Virus record (IMG/VR): IMGVR_UViG_3300010334_000132
Coordinates: 1 to 36,843 of that record
Length of the DNA: 36,843 bases
From: a virus
Direction: 5' to 3' (one strand)
Shown in pieces: positions 3,012-6,987 of this stretch. How positions within the stretch are numbered: position 1 is the first letter of the stretch; every line of letters starts with the position of its first letter. The translations under genes and the position numbers were made by a program. The notes beneath the pieces are model-generated. The model made no database searches and was not told where the DNA came from. It saw only the letters and a list, made by a program, of their open reading frames with translations.

Positions 3012-3355
3012 ACAAGGTAAAGTTCCGTTGGGGCGAGGAAACCTACACGCTCTGCGTAACCCAAGACGATTGTTGGCTTGAGGACGGACCTTCTGACATT
3101 TCGGACAGAATGCTGAAGGGCATGGACGAACTCGCCATGGAGAATGGGATGCTCCCGCCGAAGGGTTTATGTGCTGGATGCTGGAAAGGAACTTACGAGG
3201 CAATAGTCGAGGACTACCATATAGGCGGGGAAACTATTAAAGACCTTGATCTGGAAAGATGCCCAAGGTGCAGACACACCATTTTGCCTTGGCAATCGGT
3301 GGAGAGAGTTGACAAGGTATTGGAGGAAGCGAGGAAGGCCAAGAAAAGTCTATGA
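3005..3355 (+). CDS. hypothetical protein with zinc-ribbon-like cysteine pairs
   Basis: A 116-residue protein with two CxxC pairs (CAGC near residue 58, CPRC near residue 86) spaced as in a zinc ribbon, so metal binding is likely. An alternative GTG start lies one codon downstream. The stop overlaps the ATG at 3352 of the Mom-like gene. No enzyme motif is seen. A nucleic-acid-binding role fits the fold and the neighbouring modification gene, but is inference. Confidence 0.6.
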   Translation: MVNKVKFRWGEETYTLCVTQDDCWLEDGPSDISDRMLKGMDELAMENGMLPPKGLCAGCWKGTYEAIVEDYHIGGETIKDLDLERCPRCRHTILPWQSVERVDKVLEEARKAKKSL

Positions 3356-4017
3356 GTTTACGCGCAGATAGTTCAGTAGTAGAACTTCCCCTATTCCAAG
3401 GGGAGAACGGAGGTGCAATTCCTACCTCTGCGCTCCAACTTAAATTCCGGGCCATAGGGTCGAAGATGATGAATGAAGTAGTCGTTGCAAACCACTACGC
3501 GCACCGGGCCGTGCCGTGCAACTGGTCGTTCGGATGCTTCCATGGCAGTGAGCTGCTGGGCGTGATCTCGTTCGGCAAACCCGCGTCGCACCATCTGTGC
3601 AGGGGCATATGCGGGGCAGAGAATGCGTCCAGGGTCTACGAGTTGAATAGACTGTGGCTCGACGATCGGTGCCCCAAGAATTCTGAGAGCAGATTTATAT
3701 CCTGGAGCATTCGTGAGTTGTCGAAGTTGCGGCCGTACTTGATCCTAGTTAGCTATGCAGATACCGGGGCCGGGCACAATGGAATGATCTACTCGGCAAC
3801 GAACTGGATATATACCGGACTATCTGACAAGAGATCTTCCGGGGACAAGGTGGTAGGCAACAAGCACAGCAGGCACTCGCGGACCATGGAAGAAGCAGTG
3901 ATCGTTCCGCGGACCAGGAAGCATAGGTTTGTTTACTTTTGCAACCAAAAGGATAGAACGTTACTGAAATGGAATGTAGAGAACTGGAAAGAATGGAAAG
4001 AATGGAGACAGGAATGA
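3352..4017 (+). CDS. Mom-like GNAT-fold DNA modification protein
   Basis: The 221-residue ORF matches by eye the Mom family, GNAT-fold enzymes that in phage Mu modify adenine to protect DNA from restriction. The pattern includes NHYAHR (about residue 48), GVISFGKPAS, a GICG segment, ELNRLWL and SYADTGAGHNGMIY...IYTGLSDKR. The conserved fold seems to begin at LKFRAI, about residue 30. The first 30 codons are a tRNA-Gly-shaped sequence (3362-3437). Start 3352 is coupled to the upstream stop by ATGA and has only a distant AGGAAGG. No ATG, GTG or TTG lies in frame between it and the fold. A GGAGG before an ATT at 3418 is a remote alternative. Substrate and chemistry here are unknown. Confidence 0.7.
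   Translation: MSLRADSSVVELPLFQGENGGAIPTSALQLKFRAIGSKMMNEVVVANHYAHRAVPCNWSFGCFHGSELLGVISFGKPASHHLCRGICGAENASRVYELNRLWLDDRCPKNSESRFISWSIRELSKLRPYLILVSYADTGAGHNGMIYSATNWIYTGLSDKRSSGDKVVGNKHSRHSRTMEEAVIVPRTRKHRFVYFCNQKDRTLLKWNVENWKEWKEWRQE
3362..3437 (+). tRNA. tRNA-Gly(TCC)-like cloverleaf inside the Mom-like ORF
   Basis: The acceptor stem GCGCAGA/TCTGCGC is perfect (7 bp), followed by discriminator T and an encoded CCA. The D stem GTTC/GAAC and the anticodon stem TCCCC/GGGGA are perfect. The anticodon loop TATTCCAA places TCC after U33 but has 8 bases instead of 7. The T arm GGAGG-TGCAATT has conserved C56, R57 and A58 positions, but its 3' strand carries one extra A (3424). It is clearly tRNA-derived. 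It could be a working unusual tRNA, an extended-loop (+1 suppressor type) tRNA, or a decayed tRNA captured as the 5' end of the gene. Confidence 0.5.
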
Positions 4018-4217
4018 GTCAATCAATCGAATGTCCTAACTGTAAGGTAGCGGTCCCAGTGGCGTTATTCGCGTCCAGGATCGGCAAGGTGACGTCCGAG
4101 GCTAAGGCCAGGGCATCGATCGCTAATGGTAAGAAGGGTGGGGCGCCTAAAGGTAATAGGAATTGGGCTGGGAAAGAGCTCCCGGTGGCATCGTTTCGAC
4201 CCATCAAACTGGACTGA
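4014..4217 (+). CDS. small basic zinc-finger-like protein
   Basis: A 67-residue protein started at the ATG overlapping the upstream stop, with AGGA ahead. It has a CPNC pair near the N-terminus and a basic segment (KARASIANGKKGGAPKGNRN) typical of small nucleic-acid-binding phage proteins. Only one cysteine pair is visible, so metal binding would need a partner. It is the last gene before the structured non-coding region. Confidence 0.55.
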   Translation: MSQSIECPNCKVAVPVALFASRIGKVTSEAKARASIANGKKGGAPKGNRNWAGKELPVASFRPIKLD

Positions 4218-4283
4218 AACATAGCCCGAAAGTTCTAGAAACAGCTATTTCGCCCTACTCTGTTAAACCCGGGTTCTACACTG

Positions 4284-4324
4284 TTTCACCATTTCGTTCC
4301 CCTTATATATATATAATGGTGAAA
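4284..4324 (+). promoter_or_regulatory. inverted repeat flanking a consensus -10 box
   Basis: TTTCACCATT (4284-4293) is the exact reverse complement of AATGGTGAAA (4315-4324), with 21 bases between. A consensus TATAAT lies at 4312-4317 and overlaps the right arm. No good -35 element is found at 17 bp, so this may be a regulated or activator-dependent promoter, with the arms as operator half-sites. Transcription would start near 4324-4326, where the foldable segment begins. Confidence 0.45.
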
Positions 4325-4325
4325 T

Positions 4326-4410
4326 GACCCCTTGTTAGAGCGGGGAACTAAAGTTCCCCCGCTTCGCTTCGCTAGCGGTACCGCTCCAACCGCGGGGGTC
4401 TTTCAGTTTT
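4326..4410 (+). ncRNA. candidate structured small RNA or complex terminator
   Basis: GACCCC (4326-4331) pairs with GGGGTC (4395-4400) to close the element. Inside, GCGGGGAAC/GTTCCCC(C)GC forms a hairpin with a TAAA loop, and AGCGGTACCGCT (4374-4385) is a 12-bp palindrome. GAGCGG (4338-4343) can alternatively pair with CCGCTC (4381-4386). The closing stem is followed by a T-rich TTTCAGTTTT. Starting just after the TATAAT box, this could be a self-contained RNA of about 80 nt. It could also be a bidirectional terminator. Confidence 0.4.
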
Positions 4411-4499
4411 ACCATATGCCTTTTTGCTTTCTTTCCGTAAAAGATGAGTGAAATGGAAAGGGCTTGCGCCATGTTTGACATGCAATACCTTGTGGCGAG

Positions 4500-4529
4500 C
4501 TAGTTCAAAGGGGTGGGGTGGGGAACTAG
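4500..4529 (+). repeat. inverted repeat enclosing three G4 tracts
   Basis: CTAGTTC (4500-4506) and GAACTAG (4523-4529) are exact inverted arms. Between them lies GGGGTGGGGTGGGG (4510-4523); GGG and GGGG tracts follow at 4538 and 4542. Four G tracts are thus within reach, enough for a possible G-quadruplex on the plus strand or its transcript. The last G of the run belongs to the right arm. Confidence 0.5.
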
Positions 4530-4531
4530 TC

Positions 4532-4565
4532 GCGGCCGGGAGGGGTGCAAGTGGTTCCCGGCCGC
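4532..4565. repeat. 10-bp perfect GC-rich inverted repeat
   Basis: GCGGCCGGGA (4532-4541) and TCCCGGCCGC (4556-4565) are exact reverse complements separated by 14 bases. No T run follows, so it is a poor intrinsic terminator. It is better viewed as a protein-binding or DNA-structure site next to the terminase genes. Confidence 0.55.
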
Positions 4566-4601
4566 ATGGTTTTCTCAGTCCCTACCGGGAGGATTGTTGA
4601 T

Positions 4602-4796
4602 GTGGAAGAAGGTGAAGTTAAAGAAATCATTGCAGAAAACGCCAAGCTCAAAAGCGCTTGTGGATCTTTTTGGCGCTTGCTCACAAATTCAAGGCGTCGA
4701 TGTAGCGATGAGGTTGGGGAGACATTAGTAAATGAATGCATCTGGAAGCTCCAGCGACTTGCCAACTACTACGAGTCCAAGGGATCTAGCCTCTGA
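4602..4796 (+). CDS. small hypothetical protein ahead of terminase
   Basis: I place the start at GTG 4602, 9 bases after a strong GGGAGG. In-frame ATG 4566 and GTG 4545 are alternatives but abut or lie in the inverted repeat. The 64-residue product has a short heptad-like helix (EVKEIIAENAKLKSA) and a C-terminal helix with SDEVGETLVNECIWKLQ. It overlaps the small-terminase ORF by 65 bases. An ATG at 4600 in another frame gives a less protein-like 42-residue product. Function unknown. Confidence 0.45.
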   Translation: MEEGEVKEIIAENAKLKSACGSFWRLLTNSRRRCSDEVGETLVNECIWKLQRLANYYESKGSSL

Positions 4797-5394
4797 TCCA
4801 ATCCCGGCCATAGTGCCGAGGCAAAAGAAGCGCAGGATGAGGTTGCGCGTTCCCGAGAAGAAGATTGAGAAGGTGGATGAGAAGCGCATGGACAAAGAGC
4901 GCAGACTCATGAATGAAGTTCCGAACTACATCCCGGACGTTGAACTAGGCGCCAGGGGATTGCCCAAGATTACTGAAGAGCACATCACGATTGTGGAGAC
5001 TGCACTGAGTAAAGGGTTCCCATATGCAATGATTGCGGACCTATTGGGAATTGCAAAGTCCACGCTATCAGCATTCCTATCCGCCAGGCCCCACATCAGC
5101 GAACGCTTAAAAAAAGCAGAGTCACTCCACATCACGCGTGCTCTGGAAGTCATTGACAGGGCGGCAGAAAAGGGGACTTGGCAAGCGGCTGCCTGGCGCA
5201 TCGAGCGCAGGGCCCAGGAGCACTTCGGTCAACAGTCCCGGGTCCAGGTTGGTGGAGCAGTGGCGAACGTGCATTTTACCGCGGCCGACGCGGCGCTCCT
5301 GGTCAACGCGAACAAAATTAAGTATGCGGGGAAGTCGCAATCGAAGACCGTTTCCGAGCCGAATTCAGTACAAGACTCATTGTGCGACAAATGA
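4732..5394 (+). CDS. terminase small subunit (putative)
   Basis: The 220-residue protein has a disordered, very basic N-terminus. A helix-turn-helix follows at about residues 85-125 (VETALSKGFPYAMIADLLGI, then a KSTLSAFLSARP segment). Next comes the helix pattern EVIDRAAEKGTWQAAAWRIERR, common in small terminases, which recognise the packaging site and load the large subunit. Start 4732 has GGGGAG about 10 bases upstream. Internal starts would remove the overlap with the previous gene but have poorer ribosome-binding sites. It is adjacent to the large subunit. Confidence 0.7.
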   Translation: MNASGSSSDLPTTTSPRDLASDPIPAIVPRQKKRRMRLRVPEKKIEKVDEKRMDKERRLMNEVPNYIPDVELGARGLPKITEEHITIVETALSKGFPYAMIADLLGIAKSTLSAFLSARPHISERLKKAESLHITRALEVIDRAAEKGTWQAAAWRIERRAQEHFGQQSRVQVGGAVANVHFTAADAALLVNANKIKYAGKSQSKTVSEPNSVQDSLCDK

Positions 5395-5427
5395 AACAAC
5401 CAATATTAGAATTATATTACATGGGGT

Positions 5428-6987
5428 TTGGGAGTCAATAAAATTGTGGAGACGACGCCCAAAACAATCGTGACCCCCCACGACACCCCCCCGGGGGGGC
5501 CCCCACCACGCGCGCGCGCGCGCGCGACCCCCCACAGAAATTCGGCTAAAAATAAAAAGGGGTCATCGAAACCCGGCCCGGCATCGAAGGTTGACGAACA
5601 AGCTACCCCGGCAGGATTCGCGGATGGTGTGCTCAGGTTAAATCTGTACCCCTGGCAAAAGGAGGTCATGAATAACCTGGCCCCAATCTATAGCCGGGTA
5701 GCGCTAGTGGCTGCGAACGGTTCCGGCAAGACGTCAAACGTCATCGCCCCGGCCCTGGTCTGGCACATGGTGTGCTTTGAGGAGTCCTTGTCTGTCGTTA
5801 CCGCGTCAGTGTATCGCCAGGTCGAATCCGTGCTCTGGCCTGCGATTAAAGCCCTTCTAAGGCCCTTTGGCGACATGGTTGAGGTCACCAGTGGGGAAAT
5901 CCGTTTCAAGCATGCCTCGGGGCGTATAAGCCGAATTTTGGGGTTTACAGCAGGCAATGACAACGAGTCAGCAGGCCGGGCGGAAGGTTTTCACGCTGCG
6001 AACCATGAAACCGCTCCACTCATGTACGTTGTCGACGAGGCCAAGACCGTCCAGGACCCGATCTACGTTTCAGTGTTTCGATGCCAACCTACCCGCCTCC
6101 TGGTCGCCAGTTCGCCAGGGGCCCCGGTGGGTCAGTTCTACCGATGTTTTACCAAGGAGGCAGATCTGTGGAAAAAGACCAGGGCAACTGCCTGGGACTG
6201 TCCACACATAAGTCCGCTATACATTTCAGAGATCCAGCAACGGTATGGGGTCAACAGTCCGTTCACTCAGTCCATGCTCAAGGCGGAATTCATGGACCTT
6301 GGCGAGGAGCGCCTGGTCGTGAGCCTGGGTAGCTACGACAACTGCGTAAACAACCCTCCTGTCCCTAATGGGACAGACAGAGCGGCTGGCATCGACTTTT
6401 CCGCGGGTGGCGACGAGAACGTGATCGCGATCCGGGAAGGGAACCGAATCCTCCCACTGATCACATGGCGCGAAAGGGATACGATGGCAACGGTCGGGCG
6501 GATCATCATGGAACTAAAGAAAGCCGGGGTTAAGCCGGAACAAGTATTCGCCGACGCCGGGGGCCTGGGTCTGCCAATGTGCGACGCGTTGAACGAAGCC
6601 GGATGGACCGTGAACCGGGTAAACTTTGGTGGCAACGCCAGGGACAGCGACGCCTACCAGAACAGGGGTTCGGAAATGTGGCACAGGCTGGCCCGGAAGA
6701 TTGAAACTTGCGACATCATCCTTCCTGAGGACGACATTCTTAAAAGCCAGCTAGTGACCAGGAGAGCCCAGGCAACGTCTCGCGGAAAGCTGGGCCTGGA
6801 GTCGAAAGACGCAATGCGGTCCCGCGGAGTGGCGTCTCCGGACAGGGCCGACGCGGTTGTCATGGCATGCGACAACGCGGGGCTTGACTACGACTTGACA
6901 ATGGCATACACGCGTCCATCTTTGCTTGAACTAATGAAACAGGCGTCCGCGGACACTGAAATGTCCGGTTGGGATGCCGGGGGATAA
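5428..6987 (+). CDS. terL: terminase large subunit (ATPase-nuclease)
   Basis: This is the motor that pumps DNA into proheads and cuts it. The ATPase domain shows Walker A AANGSGKT (95-102) and Walker B MYVVDEAK (D203, E204). The RNase H-like nuclease shows acidic residues in GIDFSAGG (D323), FADAGG (D376) and DRADAVVM (D472, D475). The likely start is TTG 5428, or GTG 5446 which has GGGAG upstream; no useful ATG precedes the domain. The N-terminal 50 residues are low-complexity, encoded by an extreme C/G-rich tract, and precede the fold proper. At 519 residues the length is normal. Confidence 0.9.
   Translation: MGVNKIVETTPKTIVTPHDTPPGGPPPRARARATPHRNSAKNKKGSSKPGPASKVDEQATPAGFADGVLRLNLYPWQKEVMNNLAPIYSRVALVAANGSGKTSNVIAPALVWHMVCFEESLSVVTASVYRQVESVLWPAIKALLRPFGDMVEVTSGEIRFKHASGRISRILGFTAGNDNESAGRAEGFHAANHETAPLMYVVDEAKTVQDPIYVSVFRCQPTRLLVASSPGAPVGQFYRCFTKEADLWKKTRATAWDCPHISPLYISEIQQRYGVNSPFTQSMLKAEFMDLGEERLVVSLGSYDNCVNNPPVPNGTDRAAGIDFSAGGDENVIAIREGNRILPLITWRERDTMATVGRIIMELKKAGVKPEQVFADAGGLGLPMCDALNEAGWTVNRVNFGGNARDSDAYQNRGSEMWHRLARKIETCDIILPEDDILKSQLVTRRAQATSRGKLGLESKDAMRSRGVASPDRADAVVMACDNAGLDYDLTMAYTRPSLLELMKQASADTEMSGWDAGG
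5472..5535. repeat. C7G7 palindrome and (CG)9 tract between 10-bp direct repeats
   Basis: GACCCCCCAC occurs at 5472-5481 and again at 5526-5535. Between them are seven C then seven G (5486-5499), five more C, and nine CG dinucleotides (5509-5526). The C7G7 block is a perfect palindrome and alternating CG favours Z-DNA. The tract stays in frame within the terminase N-terminus, encoding Thr/Pro/Gly/Arg/Ala residues. Confidence 0.8.

Follow-up and report, generated by a model that had tools for sequence, protein, structure and literature searches.

Genomic context of the element

The window analysed here, the whole stretch of 36,843 nt, corresponds to one tailed-phage record, whose recognisable genes lie on the plus strand. 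The element was found inside a non-coding gap of approximately 380 nt (4218-4601). To the left, the gap is bordered by a gene for a Mom-like DNA modification protein with a small CPNC-containing ORF, which ends at 4217. To the right, the late genes follow in the order small conserved ORF, terS and terL:

4602-4796, plus strand: first late ORF, encoding a conserved small protein (GTG start, reading frame of ORF 4545-4796; conserved in the alignment of 24 rows)
4732-5394, plus strand: terminase small subunit, terS (phrog_4102, E 1.9e-15)
5428-6987, plus strand: terminase large subunit, terL (phrog_2, E 5.4e-24)

A Shine-Dalgarno-like GGGAGG (4587-4592) lies ahead of the first late ORF. The best terL match among cultured phages shows 39% identity and comes from an Akkermansia phage. 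Relatives were gathered by terL and terS searches, which yielded 38 and 33 loci. The element set comprises 28 distinct copies found in related, uncultivated phages, 25 being full-length; conservation was followed in an alignment of 24 rows, and covariation was counted on 23 distinct rows. In the aligned relatives the place of the element is constant, namely the non-coding gap directly before the late operon.

A promoter-like block upstream of the element

The following features were recognised between the Mom operon and the element:

4238-4252, plus strand: conserved upstream block GAAACAGCTATTTCG (AAACAG and ATTTC invariant in the alignment of 24 relatives)
4256-4264, plus strand: direct repeat, copy 1, TACTCTGTT (TACTCTGT invariant in the 24-row alignment)
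4277-4285, plus strand: direct repeat, copy 2, TACACTGTT, 21 bp downstream of copy 1
4281-4294, plus strand: left arm of the inverted repeat CTGTTTCACCATT/AATGGTGAAACAG (paired in 23/23 distinct rows)
4312-4317, plus strand: -10 hexamer TATAAT (21/28 distinct copies; CAGAAT in 7/28)
4315-4327, plus strand: inverted repeat, right arm (AATGGTGAAACAG in the majority of relatives, AATGGTGAAATGA in the window)
4324-4326, plus strand: predicted transcription start, placed by its spacing from the -10 hexamer (7-9 nt past the last T)

The exact hexamer that a sequence-only reading of this DNA had pointed out is thus present. It is one of three TATAAT on the plus strand of the window, and the chance of meeting it in a given 7-nt slot is about 0.0006, although A and T are locally enriched in this tract. 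Pairing in the element begins with G4326, 8 nt past the hexamer, in line with the 7-9 bases proposed by that reading. Its description of a perfect -10 applies to the window, but a quarter of the relatives deviate from TATAAT, and the missing -35 had been left unmentioned. Hexamer positions A2, A4, A5 and T6 are invariant in the 24-row alignment. We found no -35 hexamer, and the sigma-70 scan calls no promoter (no -35/-10 pair) at the element; the promoter scan found no other promoter-like site on the plus strand between 3300 and terS.

Upstream of the hexamer, the two copies of the direct repeat are the only matches in the window to CTACWCTGTT with at most one mismatch. Their spacing corresponds to two helical turns, and they are centred near -64 and -43 relative to the predicted start. 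The arms of the inverted repeat flank the -10 hexamer and form a helix of 13 bp in most relatives and about 10 bp in the window. Identity among the relatives climbs from 0.63 (4218-4237) to 0.89 at the conserved upstream block, and the whole upstream part is conserved at 0.89-0.95, which is like the element and above the neighbouring coding region. The repeats at 4238-4311 look like regulator sites, and together with a -10 hexamer lacking a -35 their arrangement looks like the layout of an activator-dependent promoter.

Predicted folding of the element into a three-way junction

Just past TATAAT, the closed multi-helix element of the sequence-only reading was recovered as a predicted, closed three-way junction at 4326-4400. 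The RNA corresponding to 4325-4403 has a predicted folding energy of -38.5 kcal/mol (z -4.6), and 0/200 shuffled sequences fold as stably. The helices are:

4326-4332, plus strand: P1, 5' arm, GACCCC(U), paired with 4394-4400 (three pairs change on both sides)
4334-4336, plus strand: P1b, 5' arm, GTT (fold; invariant)
4338-4343, plus strand: P2, 5' arm, GAGCGG (fold; invariant)
4344-4357, plus strand: hairpin P3, GGAAC-UAAA-GUUCC, stem 4344-4348/4353-4357 (pair 4346-4355 changes on both sides in 7/23 rows)
4359-4378, plus strand: hairpin P4, CCGCU...AGCGG, stem 4359-4363/4374-4378 (fold; invariant)
4381-4390, plus strand: 3' arms of P2 (4381-4386) and P1b (4388-4390) (fold)
4394-4400, plus strand: P1, 3' arm, GGGGGTC (fold and covariation)

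In 25/25 full-length copies the best predicted fold has this same junction core. It is also kept in L018, L063 and L104+, in which P1 is extended and P1b is replaced. If P3 is extended instead, the resulting alternative fold loses 3.7 kcal/mol, and the invariant bases are compatible with either fold. In longer transcripts, 4316-4324 can pair instead with 4406-4416 or with 4284-4294.

The minus strand of the element also folds well (z -4.8), and therefore the assignment of the RNA strand depends on few G-U cells. In P1, UG is found in three rows and GU in one, which would give A-C on the other strand. These retained wobble cells, the -10 hexamer and the direction of the genes favour a plus-strand RNA.

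Conservation and covariation

The conserved block extends from 4238 to about 4405 with an identity of 0.89-0.98, compared with about 0.84-0.87 in the adjacent small ORF (24-row alignment). It peaks at 4338-4397 (0.95-0.98), where loops and junctions are nearly invariant as well as stems. Beyond approximately 4410, identity falls sharply, from 0.98 to 0.64 within 50 nt, and is 0.64-0.74 at 4418-4457. The spacer in this region carries indels, and about 30 nt of it are missing in L024.

Compensatory changes in the stems, on which the sequence-only reading had made its RNA depend, were looked for and are present in P1 and P3. Four distinct pairs of P1 arms occur (AGACCCC/GGGGTCT, AGCCCCC/GGGGGCT, GACCCCT/GGGGGTC and, in L024, AGCCAC/GTGGCT), both arms changing in concert, while the P3 pair 4346-4355 is either A-U or G-C. 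Over the whole structure, 24 cells show two-sided changes and pairing amounts to 99.5%; 0/500 shuffles reach either value, and sliding the partner by one position reduces pairing to 48-52%. A 15-row alignment of the core agrees with this result. P2 and P4 never vary, so that covariation has no bearing on either of them. On the tree of the downstream genes the P1 arm states are scattered and need about nine changes. However, since the branches of this tree are weak and recombination, which seems to be common among the relatives, is probable, only about four distinct compensatory events are a safe count.

The T-rich stretch and a second hairpin in the proposed leader

According to the sequence-only reading, the element ends at a T-rich stretch. 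The sequence CTTTCAGTTTT is indeed present at 4400-4410, but it contains only 3-4 T and is a weak terminator. The loose scan reported a weak terminator-like site at 4383-4399 followed by this stretch; the GC-rich P1 is followed by 3-4 T here and by TTTT in most relatives. Further downstream, identity rises again in a second conserved stretch, and a hairpin lies within it:

4401-4417, plus strand: T-rich tail TTTCAGTTTTACCATAT (terminator-like by the loose scan only)
4532-4565, plus strand: second conserved leader hairpin, 11-bp stem and 12-nt loop (one two-sided change, in L035)

The 12-nt loop of the second hairpin is nearly invariant. The 5' arm of this hairpin is similar to CCGGGAGG, the ribosome-site sequence directly ahead of the first late ORF. 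An ORF starting within the hairpin was considered and rejected; its GTG reads GCG in several relatives.

Distribution and search for known RNA families

The element is present in a single copy in 11/11 records of this phage group that were searched as a whole, including the window, and in none of five more distant records searched in the same way. The earlier statement that it belongs to no recognised family agrees with our search of Rfam 15 (4227 families), in which none reached the gathering score over 4284-4410. A permissive scan below this score yielded no convincing family either, pRNA included. The sole match at the gathering score in the window is a tRNA at 3362-3433; the element itself was also considered as a tRNA, and this was dismissed, ARAGORN finding none and the Rfam tRNA lying elsewhere.

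No homologue of the element region was found in cultured phages, and in bacterial genomes both the pattern scan and the terL scan were empty. Loose pattern matches in other viruses were unrelated chance matches, flanks and core occurring together only in the terS/terL relatives. The covariance model gave no credible match in Akkermansia phages or in distant terminase relatives at 37-48% identity, and no comparable element is present where distant relatives have their gap ahead of terS. Two weak matches of the model, in L195 and L207, were discarded, as both fall on the minus strand where terL begins with a C-rich stretch. We regard the element as a structured RNA that is new and restricted to this lineage, and of a general kind that is already known; it would add to Rfam a structured-RNA family absent from it. 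The candidate structured RNAs from phages and metagenomes in Rfam are likewise lineage-restricted, covarying and found by comparison; none of them matches the element.

Possible function in the control of late genes

The element most likely helps to control late-gene expression. Somewhat tentatively, and ahead of any other reading, we propose that the late operon is controlled from the block 4238-4410, which would combine an activator-type promoter with a folded leader acting in cis. A putative phage regulator would bind the upstream direct repeats and the inverted repeat flanking the -10 hexamer, and would recruit RNA polymerase to this promoter without a -35. Transcription would begin at about 4324-4326, and the first ~78 nt would fold at once into the junction (P1-P4). 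The leader RNA would stay joined to the nascent late mRNA and work in cis, most likely by modifying the elongating RNA polymerase or by setting the read-through past the weak T-run at 4400-4410, which would lead into the terminase and head genes. The second hairpin, located before the first ribosome site, would be part of the same leader. Here we infer four things, the promoter activity, the start site, the regulator and the cis-acting role. Late transcripts could also arise by read-through from the upstream Mom operon. The early-to-late switch is unknown for most uncultivated phages, and this compact, conserved candidate site for late control comes with a testable RNA for one phage group.

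The sequence-only reading had instead suggested a stand-alone phage small RNA. A structured, non-coding RNA between two gene blocks is in agreement with our data, but the stand-alone status goes beyond them: with the late operon directly downstream, no other promoter-like site found before terS and a weak terminator, the element could just as well form the 5' leader of the late mRNA. The main rival to a cis-acting leader is accordingly that the transcript from the -10 hexamer ends at the T-run past P1 and is a stable RNA of ~80 nt acting in trans. P1 would enclose its 5' end, and the 3' end would consist of P1 plus TTTT in most relatives; the peak of conservation with its sharp stop, the indels in the spacer and the near invariance of loops and junctions beyond the stems would also fit. 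Nevertheless, 3-4 U make a poor intrinsic terminator, no target or partner is known, and the late operon adjoins without another promoter-like site. We regard this explanation as less likely than a cis-acting leader. Less probable still is a new class of phage RNA, in which the junction leader at the very 5' end of the late transcript would by itself, with no protein antiterminator, either reprogram RNA polymerase for the late operon or work for the packaging machinery. To our knowledge, there are very few cases of RNA-only control of phage transcription (HK022 put).

The palindromes could also be protein sites or cruciforms in a DNA-level site, i.e. a replication origin, a packaging (pac/cos) site or a recombination site. 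The location just upstream of terS, the AT-rich tract and a number of inverted repeats, among them the palindrome AGCGGTACCGCT, speak for this, as do five contig ends of relatives within 4218-4450 and one 36,680-base record that closes on itself across 4220-4346. Compensation over 70 nt with the U-G wobble kept on the plus strand, however, favours RNA; a GC-skew switch is absent at the element, dozens of contigs pass straight through it, and the ends there are few (5/52) compared with a bigger pile-up at 5397-5540. On balance, a DNA site is unlikely. The chances are very small that the element is a structure of the early/late boundary, in which RNA reading through from the Mom operon would form the junction together with the 4281-4327 hairpin, so that the early transcript is stopped, processed or insulated: although this 11-bp hairpin is paired in all rows and abuts P1, this leaves the -10 hexamer and the direct repeats unexplained, and in the subgroup of the window the hairpin has lost outer pairs while P1 stayed paired. 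The compact three-way junction beside terminase genes is reminiscent of an RNA that joins the terminase motor in the style of phi29 pRNA. We consider this the least probable of all, since the pRNA family was among those searched in Rfam without a match and both terminase subunits of the phage, small and large, are of the ordinary type; as far as we know, pRNA is confined to phi29-like phages. Hardly more credible is a short coding sequence. A plus-strand frame (LLERGTKVPPLRFASG...) runs open across the element in 24/25 sequences, and the covarying P3 pair sits on third codon positions, but there is no ATG or GTG start, only TTG/CTG without a ribosome site. L024 has this frame interrupted, and the P1 changes are non-synonymous. 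The coding reading was rejected.

Several contig ends deserve a separate description. The ends piling up at 5397-5540 coincide with the start of terL, where the coding run CCCCCCCGGGGGGGC is found, and probably reflect an assembly stop at a GC hairpin. In the 36,680-base record (L151 and L026), about 127 nt are shared between the two ends (window positions 4220-4346), and therefore its genome map is circular, though it is listed as linear. L104, with the element at both ends, is a chimeric contig in which two related strains are joined in inverted orientation.

Comparison with known systems

The nearest working analogue of the proposed cis-acting leader appears to be putL of HK022, a structured RNA of ~70 nt just downstream of a phage promoter, which acts in cis on RNA polymerase (PMC9378689). 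Like the element, put is a multi-helix RNA of ~70 nt, and putL is located directly past its promoter and ahead of an operon; cis action would be a further similarity. With respect to the 5'-end position, the -10 hexamer and its spacing fit, the start of the element being a predicted one. Characteristic of put is that pausing and termination are suppressed in cis and that no phage protein is needed for this. In contrast, put serves early promoters while the element precedes the late operon, and put is described as two stem-loops, whereas the element is a P1-closed junction with two inner hairpins. The covariance model of the element (R1) gave no match in HK022 (bases 1-40388), and thus no sequence-structure similarity to putL or putR.

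In lambda, the late promoter pR' and a non-coding leader lie between the early genes and the late operon, and the antiterminator Q allows an intrinsic terminator in that leader to be read through. The position between early genes and late operon is shared by the region described here, with a promoter that is predicted only. According to PMC6606751, Q binds to DNA at a site within the late promoter. The element region differs from pR'/Q in having neither a -35 nor a strong terminator, and in the conservation of structure at the very 5' end. With phi29 pRNA the element shares a three-way junction in a phage RNA; the difference lies in the absence of an Rfam match and in the ordinary terminase genes of the phage.

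A tRNA gene overlapping the Mom ORF

The Mom ORF as called overlaps a tRNA gene (3352-3470). Since the match to the Mom family starts at residue 30, the true start is probably further downstream, near Met39/40. The tRNA gene itself (3362-3433, plus strand; Rfam match of 33.5 bits) was missed by ARAGORN. It resembles tRNA-Gly(UCC), its anticodon loop UAUUCCAA is unusual in having 8 nt, its TCCA end is encoded, and it is 93-100% conserved in the relatives, in which a change in the D-stem is compensated (GTTC/GAAC to GCTC/GAGC). It is possibly a frameshift-suppressor-like tRNA.
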